From: a bacterium
GTDB lineage: Bacteria; Bacteroidota; Ignavibacteria; Kapaibacteriales; UBA7675
Direction of reading: 5' to 3'
Assembly: GCA_030426285.1 (NCBI GenBank)
Contig: JAUHYX010000003.1
Coordinates: forward strand, 1-36,358
DNA: 36,358 bases
The notes under the pieces were generated by a model. It saw only the letters and a program-made list of their open reading frames with translations. It searched no databases and was not told the origin of the DNA. Positions 31,665 through 36,358 of the stretch are shown here, piece after piece; position 1 is the stretch's first letter, and each line of letters starts with the position of its first letter. Both the position numbers and the translations under genes were made by a program.

Positions 31665-31736
31665 GCCCCGTTCGTCTATCGGCTAGGACCCAGGATTTTC
31701 ATTCCTGTAAGAGGGGTTCGATTCCCCTACGGGGTA
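31665..31736 (+). tRNA. tRNA-Glu (anticodon TTC)
   Basis: GCCCCGTTCGTCTATCGGCTAGGACCCAGGATTTTCATTCCTGTAAGAGGGGTTCGATTCCCCTACGGGGTA: 7-bp acceptor stem, CAGGA/TCCTG anticodon stem with loop TTTTCAT, AGGGG-TTCGATT-CCCCT T-arm; no encoded CCA. Confidence 0.95.
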
Positions 31737-31769
31737 CGACGAAACACTACAAACCCTAGGAACCACACG
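31730..31769 (+). repeat. Direct repeat copy 1 (putative att), overlaps tRNA-Glu 3' end
   Basis: CGGGGTACGACGAAACACTACAAACCCTAGGAACCACACG; matches 35791..35830 at 39/40 positions. Confidence 0.9.
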
Positions 31770-32076
31770 GCTCCCAGGGTTTTGTGTTTTAAAGGGCTAA
31801 CACTACTGCAGACAGTTTCCACATGCCTAAATCGTACCCTCCAAAAAAGTGAACCCTAAATTGGGGGTGTTTTGAGCCCAACAACCACTCTATTTTGATG
31901 TCTTTCTACTAGATGTGGCAACGACACCCCAGCACTCACTTCGATTTCCACGTTTTGTGAGTTTTAGTTTAATAAGTATCTTCGACGATCCTGTTCTCTT
32001 GCTTAGTATCGTGCACTGAGACAGATATTCCTGCTATAGCTTGTTGTTCTTTTACTCTATCCTGAAGGTGCTCAGT

Positions 32077-32451
32077 ATGAAAAAGTTGGTGGCCGTTTTG
32101 TGCGCAATGAATATTGCGTTAATGCTTGGGTGGACTTATGATCGTAGTTACTACAAATCGCACTCGGAGCAAGCGAGCAAAAGTGAAAATGCTCGCGTTT
32201 CAAGTACGGAAACAGTTGTAGAAGGTGACCTCAGAGTAACGGGAGCTCTCTATGTCAACGACATGATATTGAGTGAAAAATTGCGTTTGAAAGGTAGGAA
32301 CCCACAATTTGTTGTGACAAAGGAGTTTAATCTTGGAGTAGAGAGCATCGTTGTCATTAAATCGAACAGCTCTGAACCAAATAGTGTCCCAACTGTGAAC
32401 TTAGACGGTGTGGATTTATATGTGAATAACGAACTCATCTCGTCACCATGA
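32077..32451 (+). CDS. Small N-terminally anchored/exported protein of unknown function
   Basis: MKKLVAVLCAMNIALMLGWTYDRSYY signal-anchor; VVEGDLRVTGALYVNDMILSEKLRLKG beta-rich segment. Confidence 0.65.
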   Translation: MKKLVAVLCAMNIALMLGWTYDRSYYKSHSEQASKSENARVSSTETVVEGDLRVTGALYVNDMILSEKLRLKGRNPQFVVTKEFNLGVESIVVIKSNSSEPNSVPTVNLDGVDLYVNNELISSP

Positions 32452-32538
32452 TCCTATTCTTTTGCCTTAAAATGGTTTCTTTCCGGAAACAACTCCAGCC
32501 ATAAAACCTGTTTCAACAAAAAAATCACCTAACAACGT

Positions 32539-33450
32539 ATGATAGACCTCATTGGCGATATTCACGGACATGCAGACAAGCTTGAAGAGTTGTTGCGGAA
32601 GTTGGGTTATGCAGAGAACAATGGCGTGTACTCTCATCCCGAGAGAAAGGTGCTGTTAATTGGCGACTACATTGACCGAGGTCCGAAGATTCGGGAGACA
32701 CTGCAGATAGTGCGAGCGATGGTTGACAGCGACAACGCCATTGCTTTGATGGGAAATCATGAGTACAATGCATTGTGCTTTCATTACAAGGACGCTGGTG
32801 GTGGACACCTCAGAAAACACGAGATCAAGAATGTCGTTCAACACTACGAAACGCTGAAGCAGTTTCAGAATCGACAGCAAGAATACGAGGGTTATATCGA
32901 GTGGTTCAAGACCTTGCCACTGTTCTATGAAGCCGAAAACTTCAGAGCCGTTCATGCCTGTTGGGACAGCAACAACATTGAATACCTGAGGAAGGATCTA
33001 GTCAACGACCGGCTAACCGACGAGCTTATCTATCAGTCTGTGAGGAGAGGCACAGAGTTGTATGAGGCCATAGACCAAACGCTAAAAGGCAAAGAATTAC
33101 GCATGCCAGAAGGGCATTATTTCCTCGACAAAGATGGTGCAAGAAGGTCGCAAATCCGGTTCAAATGGTGGGAAGATCCGTCTGCAACGACCTACAGATC
33201 CATCAGCGTTTTGCCAAACGAAAACCTGCCCGTAACACCAATTGAAACGTCTGAACTAGCGTCGCTTGAATACTATCGCGACCACGACAAGCCTGTCTTC
33301 TTCGGACACTATTGGCTTACGGGAGAACCAGCATTCTTCAAGGACAATGTTTGCTGCCTGGACTACAGCGTTGCCAAAGGTGGCAAACTCGTAGCATACA
33401 GGATGAACGACGACACCACATTGCACAGTGGGAATTTGGTGTGTGTTTGA
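32539..33450 (+). CDS. Metallophosphoesterase, PPP-type (ApaH/PrpE-like)
   Basis: MIDLIGDIHGHADKLEELL, LLIGDYIDRGPKIRETL, ALMGNHEYNAL, VHACWDSNN, FFGHYWLTG. Confidence 0.9.
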   Translation: MIDLIGDIHGHADKLEELLRKLGYAENNGVYSHPERKVLLIGDYIDRGPKIRETLQIVRAMVDSDNAIALMGNHEYNALCFHYKDAGGGHLRKHEIKNVVQHYETLKQFQNRQQEYEGYIEWFKTLPLFYEAENFRAVHACWDSNNIEYLRKDLVNDRLTDELIYQSVRRGTELYEAIDQTLKGKELRMPEGHYFLDKDGARRSQIRFKWWEDPSATTYRSISVLPNENLPVTPIETSELASLEYYRDHDKPVFFGHYWLTGEPAFFKDNVCCLDYSVAKGGKLVAYRMNDDTTLHSGNLVCV

Positions 33451-33537
33451 GGGGGTGAAGAGTAGCTCAAACTCCTGCAACCCCTGAACCTAGGGTTTTG
33501 TGGTTTAGTTGGGGTGTACGGGTATTCAGTTGATATA

Positions 33538-35478
33538 TCACGCTTTAACAGAAACATAGGCCTGTTGTGGATGATTTCTCAATTCAGGGAACAAGTAAGC
33601 GATCTCACCGCGATCAAGCAGCACATTCAGATACTTTCTGGTGATATAGTCTTCATTTCGTCCTAGTATCGTCGCCAGTTCCGCAGCCTTAATTGCTCTT
33701 TTACTGCAAATTTCAACGATTATTTTCTCGATTTTTGAACTGTCTCTTTCTCTCTTGCCGAGACTGTCTAGAAGTGAACTTATCTTGGGATCAATTAGCT
33801 CACTAAACAGTTCCTTATTGTCTCTCGTAGTTTTCACTTCTGCTTCCGTACTTAACTCCTGAGCTTCCGTACTTAACTCCTGAGCTTCCGTACTTAACTC
33901 CTGAGCTTCCGTACTTAACTCCTGAGCTTCCGTACTTAACTCTCGAGCTCCTGTACTTAACTCTCGAGCTCCTGTACTTAACGCAGTATCTTGATCGTTC
34001 ATCGATGGACTTGGAATATAGTACGTAGCTCGACCCTTTCCTTTGGATACAATAACACCCAAATCCCGCAGAGCACGTAACTCCTGCGATGCTTGAAGAA
34101 CATCACAATCAACCAACTGTCTATACCGAGCATTGTCAATGGCACCCACTTCTCGTATAAATATCAATGCTTGCTTCTGTCCGTCAGAAAGTTTCAGCGC
34201 ATCAAACCTTGACAACCATCTCAAGTCTTTCTCGTCAAGAAAATGAAGCAACAGAAGTCTCGAAGTAAACTGATTATTAATTCTATCGGATTCGAACATA
34301 GGTGGAGCCAAATGCGACTCACGCATCATGATTCGCATCGCACGTATGCCTGACCCTTTCGTCTCGGCTAAGTTTGTTTCATGGAATACAGCAGCAATAA
34401 ACGGATTTCGAGTTTCACTACCAGGCTCGCCAAGTCGGTCTTCAGCCTTCAAAGAGTATCCAGGGTTTATAATCTCAATTCTGTTATCGTATCGCACCAC
34501 TTGAGTTGGCCTATGTTCCCGGTACGATCTGTGCATTAATGCGTTGACAATTGCCTCTCTCAGGGCTTTCGTTGGTAACCCACTTGAATCAGCTTGCAAC
34601 TCGTTGTCAGACAAGAGAAACCCTTTCGGGAGATCTGCATTTATGGCATCTACCAATCTAAACAGCAAAGTCAAAAGAGGCCCTCTCATATCGATCGTTA
34701 CAAATCGATCGTCGGGGGTTGGAACCCATTGGTTTCCGGGAACGCGAATATAATCCACCCGCAACATCGGATAGTAGGCCCTTAACGCTTTCGCCGATCC
34801 AAACAGCAAAAGACCAGCCAAAGTCAGCTCACTCCGATTCTTGCGATTTAGACAACCAAGAGATAGTAATAGGTCTCCATCGTTGTAAGTGAGTTCCTCG
34901 GCAGCAGGATTGATATTCTCTCTCAACTTTCGATACCGATCGACAGCTGTTTCATCGATATCTGCAAGTGAGGATCCTTCAACGGTAGAAACATCGTAGC
35001 TCTCTGTTGACGAATAAAACACGCGTAAGTCATCTTCAGTGCACCTTTGATCAGTAGACCCGACTCTACGAAAGGCTCCGCTTGGCAGCCCACTCTTTTC
35101 TATGTAAAGCGGTTTTTTTGACGAGTCAAGCTCAACGACTGTAATTTTGACAACGGCTTTTTCACCAATGGTCTCTACTTCAATCTTGGGACGAATTGGT
35201 ATATTAAACATGGAACTACACATACTAGCAAAGTCTTTCTGAACCTTGTCCAAGTCAGAAACGCCTACTACTGTATACTGTCCAAATAGTTGACCATGAT
35301 CTTCTGCAACCCCCAAAAGAATATATCCTCCACCAATCCCTGGTTCGTTGGAGTAGGCACACACGGTTTCCATAGCAGATTTGGAGATCGATCCTCCACC
35401 TTTCGCCTCTATCCAATCACATTCATCTTGTTGGTTTAGTATACTGAGTAACTTCTCAGCACTATAATCGAATTCCAT
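33538..35478 (-). CDS. AlbA_2/Schlafen-like ATP-binding transcriptional-regulator-type protein with heptapeptide-repeat linker
   Basis: EAKGGGSISKSAMETVCAYSNEPGIGGGYILLGVAED (AlbA_2-like), GLPTKALREAIVNALMHRSYREHRPTQVVRYDNRIEIINPG (HATPase_c_4-like), winged-helix-like region, C-terminal helical domain. Confidence 0.88.
   Translation of the reverse strand: MEFDYSAEKLLSILNQQDECDWIEAKGGGSISKSAMETVCAYSNEPGIGGGYILLGVAEDHGQLFGQYTVVGVSDLDKVQKDFASMCSSMFNIPIRPKIEVETIGEKAVVKITVVELDSSKKPLYIEKSGLPSGAFRRVGSTDQRCTEDDLRVFYSSTESYDVSTVEGSSLADIDETAVDRYRKLRENINPAAEELTYNDGDLLLSLGCLNRKNRSELTLAGLLLFGSAKALRAYYPMLRVDYIRVPGNQWVPTPDDRFVTIDMRGPLLTLLFRLVDAINADLPKGFLLSDNELQADSSGLPTKALREAIVNALMHRSYREHRPTQVVRYDNRIEIINPGYSLKAEDRLGEPGSETRNPFIAAVFHETNLAETKGSGIRAMRIMMRESHLAPPMFESDRINNQFTSRLLLLHFLDEKDLRWLSRFDALKLSDGQKQALIFIREVGAIDNARYRQLVDCDVLQASQELRALRDLGVIVSKGKGRATYYIPSPSMNDQDTALSTGARELSTGARELSTEAQELSTEAQELSTEAQELSTEAQELSTEAEVKTTRDNKELFSELIDPKISSLLDSLGKRERDSSKIEKIIVEICSKRAIKAAELATILGRNEDYITRKYLNVLLDRGEIAYLFPELRNHPQQAYVSVKA
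33839..33985. repeat. In-frame 21-bp tandem repeat, 7 copies, encoding (A/E)LST(E/G)A(Q/R/E)
   Basis: Repeated CTTAACTCCTGAGCTTCCGTA units; protein ALSTGAR ELSTGAR ELSTEAQ x4 ELSTEAE. Confidence 0.95.
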
Positions 35479-35790
35479 TTTTTGTCCTTATTTCCGTAAC
35501 TCTTCTGCAGTAACACACGAATTTCTGCCCAGTGCTGAAGAGGAATAAATGCTACCTCCACAAACTCAACCACATTATAACTTGTCCTCAACATATCGAG
35601 GATTGTGACCGTCACAATTGGTGCTCTTGGTTGGCATTTCTTTAATTCTAACAAGCGCAAAACTGGACAAGAATTCCGGCCAACCAGAGCTTTGCAGGAT
35701 CAGGCCGAAATATACTCAAAATTACACCGGAGATGTCTTCTTAGGCTTAAATCTAGGCCAAAAATACTCCTTGATTCGCGTGTGACACAT

Positions 35791-35830
35791 CGGGTTACGA
35801 CGAAACACTACAAACCCTAGGAACCACACG
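35791..35830 (+). repeat. Direct repeat copy 2 (putative att)
   Basis: CGGGTTACGACGAAACACTACAAACCCTAGGAACCACACG. Confidence 0.9.
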
Positions 35831-35987
35831 TTTCTGGGGCTTTGTGGTTTAAATGAGACTGTACGCCTTGAATCTTAAAATAGTGCTGCTAAATTACGCG
35901 TGCTCTGGCCAATTTCGGGCAAGGCTAATAATCAAAGAATGCGATAGAGAGTAACGATCCTGGTTTTTTAGGGGGCACTACAGCATT

Positions 35988-36358
35988 TTGAAACAAACTA
36001 CAGAACCACACATCAACAAGTCTACCAATACCAACAAACCAATTATTGAAGTTGGGGTATGTTCGATGACTATCGACAAAAAAGTTGGTGTTTGTATAGT
36101 CTTGGATGGTCAATCAGAGTATTCTCGTGACTACGACAACCTAATGTTGGAGAGTATAGGAACACACTTTAGGCGCATGAGAAACTACGATTTCCTTTTT
36201 GCGTTCGTCATGAAGTACAGAATTTTCTGTTTTTCCTGCTGGAATCTGAAGCACAACACTAGCGCTTATTTCATCTTAGAATGTTGCTACGAGTATACAA
36301 CAGTTGTAGAGGTCAGGTACAACGGGAACACTGACACGGTGGATATACGGAAGTTGAG
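35988..36358 (+). CDS. Hypothetical protein, truncated by right edge (start uncertain: TTG 35988 or ATG 36066)
   Basis: Frame open from a stop at ~35952 to the window end: (M)KQTTEPHINKSTNTNKPIIEVGVCSMTIDKKVGVCIVLDGQSEYSRDYDNLMLESIGTHFRRMRNYDFLFAFVMKYRIFCFSCWNLKHNTSAYFILECCYEYTTVVEVRYNGNTDTVDIRKL. Confidence 0.45.
   Translation, partial: MKQTTEPHINKSTNTNKPIIEVGVCSMTIDKKVGVCIVLDGQSEYSRDYDNLMLESIGTHFRRMRNYDFLFAFVMKYRIFCFSCWNLKHNTSAYFILECCYEYTTVVEVRYNGNTDTVDIRKL

Follow-up and report, generated by a model that had tools for sequence, protein, structure and literature searches.

The segment of about 4 kb that lies behind the tRNA-Glu gene of this bacterial contig is most probably an integrase-less island of the CIME type, inserted at the single tRNA-Glu gene of the genome and probably standing first in a tandem stack. 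Support for this reading comes from the identity of the cores of two flanking repeats, the mosaic character of the halves of these repeats, a break in composition at the tRNA gene, two sister sites behind tRNA-Arg genes and the start of an integrase gene beside one of these. The window analysed (36,358 nucleotides) spans contig C63 of a 3.36-Mb draft genome from end to end, stopping 528 bp past the right-hand repeat.

Repeat pair and composition of the tRNA-Glu segment

The integration target is a tRNA-Glu (TTC) gene at 31665-31737 on the forward strand (ARAGORN; Rfam RF00005, 52.2 bits), which is present in a single copy among the 30 tRNAs typed in the genome. As reported in the initial annotation, the segment behind it is flanked by 40-bp direct repeats, located at 31730-31769 and 35791-35830 in the same orientation and matching at 39 of 40 positions, the exception being one G/T difference. 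Their identical core comprises 35 bp (31735-31769 and 35796-35830) and the similarity between the two copies continues to 63 bp, at 83%. No further match to the 40-mer is present in the window, and 100 shuffled sequences yielded none at all. In composition, the repeat consists of the tRNA-Glu 3′ end together with the left arm of the terminator hairpin of this gene, and the island, which starts at this 3′ end, leaves the tRNA whole. The left att-like site, a candidate attL containing the tRNA 3′ end and the hairpin, spans 31730-31792 on the forward strand (69.5 bits with the site model described below), whilst the right att-like site, a candidate attR or a junction with a next unit, spans 35791-35853 on the same strand (62.6 bits). 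A third, weaker copy at 33489-33507, where the phosphatase and AlbA_2 genes converge, is a half-site in which CCTAGGGTTTTGTGGTTTA (33470-33510) matches the right arm only. It may be a relic site or a shared terminator, and it folds no better than shuffled sequences.

The proposal that DNA of foreign composition begins at tRNA-Glu is borne out by both GC content and dinucleotide usage. GC drops from 0.487 on the left of the gene to 0.444 in the 4.02-kb segment, and the dinucleotide distance of this segment is 139, compared with distances of 17-57 and a GC of 0.469-0.524 in 276 host windows matched to it in length. The same break is observed at both tRNA-Arg genes described below. The DNA past the right site (35831-36358), which carries an open ORF without a family (35988-36356), is also atypical, with a GC of 0.41 that is below every host window of equal size, although intergenic DNA inflates this figure for the last 528 bp. 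As the composition thus remains shifted past the right copy, further foreign DNA probably follows. An ORF and domain search finds no integrase between the repeats, in agreement with the earlier observation, and this result, coupled with the foreign composition past the right copy, upholds the view of an element lacking its own integrase in a tandem array that probably continues.

A family of hairpin sites across the genome

The repeated element is terminator-like, forming a hairpin with T-rich sequence after it. Six full copies of the hairpin are found genome-wide, three of which lie directly behind tRNAs, namely tRNA-Glu (C63), tRNA-Arg (TCT) on contig C218 and tRNA-Arg (ACG) on contig C271. 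These are the only tRNA-linked copies among the tRNAs read with their 3′ flanks, many others of which are followed by ordinary T-run terminators. The remaining three lie away from any tRNA: the right copy of the window (C63R) and single copies on contigs C342 and C249. A covariance model of 71 positions, built from the six sites, recovers exactly these six in a genome search, the remaining matches being reverse-strand echoes of palindromes and one match at E 1.4.

Two of the stray copies are each paired with a specific tRNA. The left parts of the two window copies are identical (34/34), whereas either is only 60-63% alike to any other copy; the right parts of the pair agree at 72%, with that of C63R being 84-88% like those of the other four sites. 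Strand exchange inside the core would be expected to produce a mosaic of this kind, with a breakpoint between matching left and diverged right halves. Similarly, the C342 copy is identical to that behind tRNA-Arg (TCT), from the 3′ bases of the tRNA through the hairpin and flank to the arm motifs, and the C249 copy is nearest to the same site (84% and 96%). The genome-wide search for further instances of the 40-mer that had been recommended at the outset has thus returned six full hairpin copies, with the window pair specific to each other. The accompanying caution, that the repeat might belong to a terminator family, proves correct in part: the 40-mer is indeed a member of a family of terminator hairpins, but the pair-specificity of its copies sets it apart from a generic dispersed repeat. 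With identical pair-specific cores and mosaic halves, the suggested attL/attR-like duplication of a tRNA 3′ end is supported.

The copy on C342 adjoins a truncated ORF that corresponds to the N-terminus of a tyrosine integrase (Arm-DNA-bind_5). The catalytic half of this protein is probably encoded at the start of contig C204, a contig join that we infer, in common with the other links between the 363 contigs of the draft. An 11-bp arm motif, CTGCCTGYAAW, precedes the integrase ORF in three consecutive copies spaced at 12 bp and recurs beside the hairpin. The C342 site therefore has arm motifs on both sides, as would be the case at a junction between two tandem elements. Within the window, matches to the motif allowing two mismatches occur at background level only and, for this reason, the window unit may be a relic.

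Behind tRNA-Arg (ACG) lies a defence island (locus L069 on contig C271, 3331-11298, minus strand), in which PADLOC identifies Dsr1 (SIR2), a type IIG restriction-modification system and a type IV Mrr-like enzyme. In the sister islands, loci L068 (3105-13818) and L067 (144-7949) contain short genes for secreted or lipoprotein-like products, arranged in runs that lie mostly on one strand and with no function assigned.

Cargo genes

The three genes between the repeats are as originally described, and neither an integrase nor a relaxase gene is found among them. The first encodes a small protein of 124 aa with an N-terminal hydrophobic segment and no family match (32077-32451, forward strand), the second a calcineurin-like (PPP/ApaH/Pnkp-like) phosphoesterase of 303 aa (32539-33450, forward strand; Metallophos, PF00149, 4.9e-14) and the third a protein of 646 aa in which a domain search identifies SLFN_AlbA_2 and HATPase_c_4 (33538-35478, reverse strand). 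The last of these genes contains a 21-bp tandem repeat (~33850-33984) encoding STEAQEL/STGAREL units, the number of which may vary between strains.

Of 123 genomes in the order, only four carry the phosphatase, the source genome included, and the two genomes of the same family lack it, yet relatives about 70-76% identical are scattered over distant Bacteroidota. This patchy distribution suggests horizontal transfer. The AlbA_2 protein, which resembles a solved RecG-related domain (2kyy), is present in 6 of the 123 genomes, again counting the source genome, and has plasmid-borne relatives. The idea that the phosphatase and the AlbA_2/HATPase protein together constitute an accessory module has to be abandoned: among 83 loci of phosphatase relatives, no relative of the small protein is found and a single weak match (23%) represents AlbA_2, which argues that the pairing is incidental. 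PADLOC finds no complete defence system in the window unit; the AlbA_2 protein gives only weak, partial matches to Argonaute models.

Relatives outside the genome

In related genomes, similar hairpins occur behind tRNA or tmRNA genes, and no second copy is found within the stretches of about 7-60 kb that were compared. The hairpin thus probably originated as a tRNA terminator and is exploited by the elements. In two of these genomes (L081, 1500-1580, and L091, 1500-1590), the tRNA-Glu hairpin is followed by GTAGGCAAATTCGTAGGCA direct repeats that resemble arm sites. The methyltransferase gene flanking the island has no close relative in the GTDB contigs, and a search for a close relative of the genome that might show an empty site at tRNA-Glu found none. 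The tail of contig C63 is matched by no other contig of the genome, and the only similarity of the window to plasmid DNA is in the tRNA region. Viral contigs contain neither the exact core nor the sister-site integrase; a looser core pattern matches 16 times, which is about the estimated chance number, and there is one partial, weak match to the site model.

A model for the island and its alternatives

In the favoured model, a tyrosine recombinase would exchange strands inside the core, which runs from the tRNA 3′ end through the left arm of its terminator hairpin, such that the left junction would keep the tRNA and a complete hairpin, whilst the far end would receive a second core with a different right arm. 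Mobilization could have occurred in cis or in trans and further units probably lie past the contig end. By analogy with the sister site, a tyrosine recombinase is the likely class of enzyme for the tRNA-Glu island. The segment looks like an ordinary genomic island that has decayed or has been moved passively. Points that weigh against the model are the background level of arm motifs and the missing integrase in the window, and the use of the same type of hairpin as an ordinary tRNA terminator, with no second copy nearby, in related genomes.

The closest parallels are provided by CIMEs, integrase-less islands with intact ends, for which tandem accretion has been described in ICESt1-related elements (PMC5704250). 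CIMEs keep attL and attR, lack genes for integration and transfer and stack with others at one site. Similarly, the window unit carries three genes only, none of them for integration or transfer, and has an identical 35-bp core at both ends that is consistent with a pair of att sites. It differs from the known CIMEs in that no partner ICE or IME is seen at the tRNA-Glu gene up to the contig end, and in its host, here a Bacteroidota-like draft genome. In Dehalococcoides, islands are arrayed in tandem behind ssrA, with 20-bp repeats of the ssrA 3′ end as their boundaries; an integration module is missing from 15 of these islands and the others encode a serine recombinase (PMC3146451). In common with these islands, the window unit sits at a single-copy RNA gene with direct repeats of its 3′ end, and it appears to work as they do, probably through the action of a tyrosine recombinase. 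However, in contrast to the serine recombinase and 20-bp tmRNA repeat of Dehalococcoides, the core here is 35 bp long and extends into the terminator hairpin, and the integrase at the sister site is a tyrosine recombinase. The segment also shares its tRNA 3′ end target, direct repeats, composition break and, at a sister site, defence cargo with tRNA-targeting islands of tyrosine recombinases. Unlike these, it is small (4.06 kb) and has neither clear arm sites nor an integrase of its own, a tyrosine integrase being found instead beside the sister site on C342.

The segment could alternatively be the left part of a larger autonomous island, with the integrase and true right end past the contig and the copy at 35791 an internal relic. 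The composition, still foreign past this copy, is compatible with such an arrangement, as is the integrase at C342, which adjoins an att-like site on what would be the right-end side of an island. Nevertheless, the right copy forms a complete hairpin and, with 35 identical bases, resembles a true junction; an internal relic should have diverged, as the half-site at 33489 has done, and a larger island is therefore considered unlikely. Less probable still is that the repeat represents a terminator family and nothing more, in which case two similar intrinsic terminators would account for the pair without any site-specific integration. The fold of the element, with its T-rich end, and the occurrence of comparable hairpins downstream of tRNA and tmRNA genes in related genomes are what such a family would predict. 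The right copy, however, sits between divergent genes and terminates neither transcript. It also carries the tRNA-end CGGG and has its sole identical partner in the Glu copy, the others being 60-63% alike, and the C342 copy likewise bears tRNA-Arg bases.

A further scenario, in which the hairpins are attC-like sites of integron-like cassettes, draws on a stand-alone integron-type integrase encoded elsewhere in the genome (locus L022, contig C22, 2878-3822), whose best solved match is IntI4 (2a3v), with GLKLHE in place of the GLRLME of IntI4. The sites are indeed hairpins and the third half-site splits the island into two gene units. An integron cassette array was nevertheless rejected as the attC boxes (RYYYAAC/GTTRRRY) are present at none of the three sites. 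In addition, the C22 protein, at 180.9 bits, scores below the curated cut-off of TIGR02249 and has Lys where IntI has the first catalytic Arg, and its contig contains neither a hairpin copy nor a cassette array, such that this explanation can be given hardly any credence.

Implications

In addition to the CIME-type reading of the single segment, a broader proposal can be made, which we regard as speculative and rather improbable: islands of this lineage would use the tRNA terminator hairpin as the core and swap its right arm at each integration for another that is still complementary, with integrase-less units stacking and being moved like cassettes by a single tyrosine recombinase that acts in trans. 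Related integration sites at three tRNA genes (Glu, Arg-TCT and Arg-ACG), one of them with a defence island, are now documented in one poorly sampled genome, and the 71-position site model can be used to locate further such islands. The mosaic of the repeat halves suggests that crossover takes place in the terminator hairpin or adjacent to it, which bears on how islands spare essential single-copy tRNAs. If the hairpin-core proposal were true, the tRNA would never lose its terminator.
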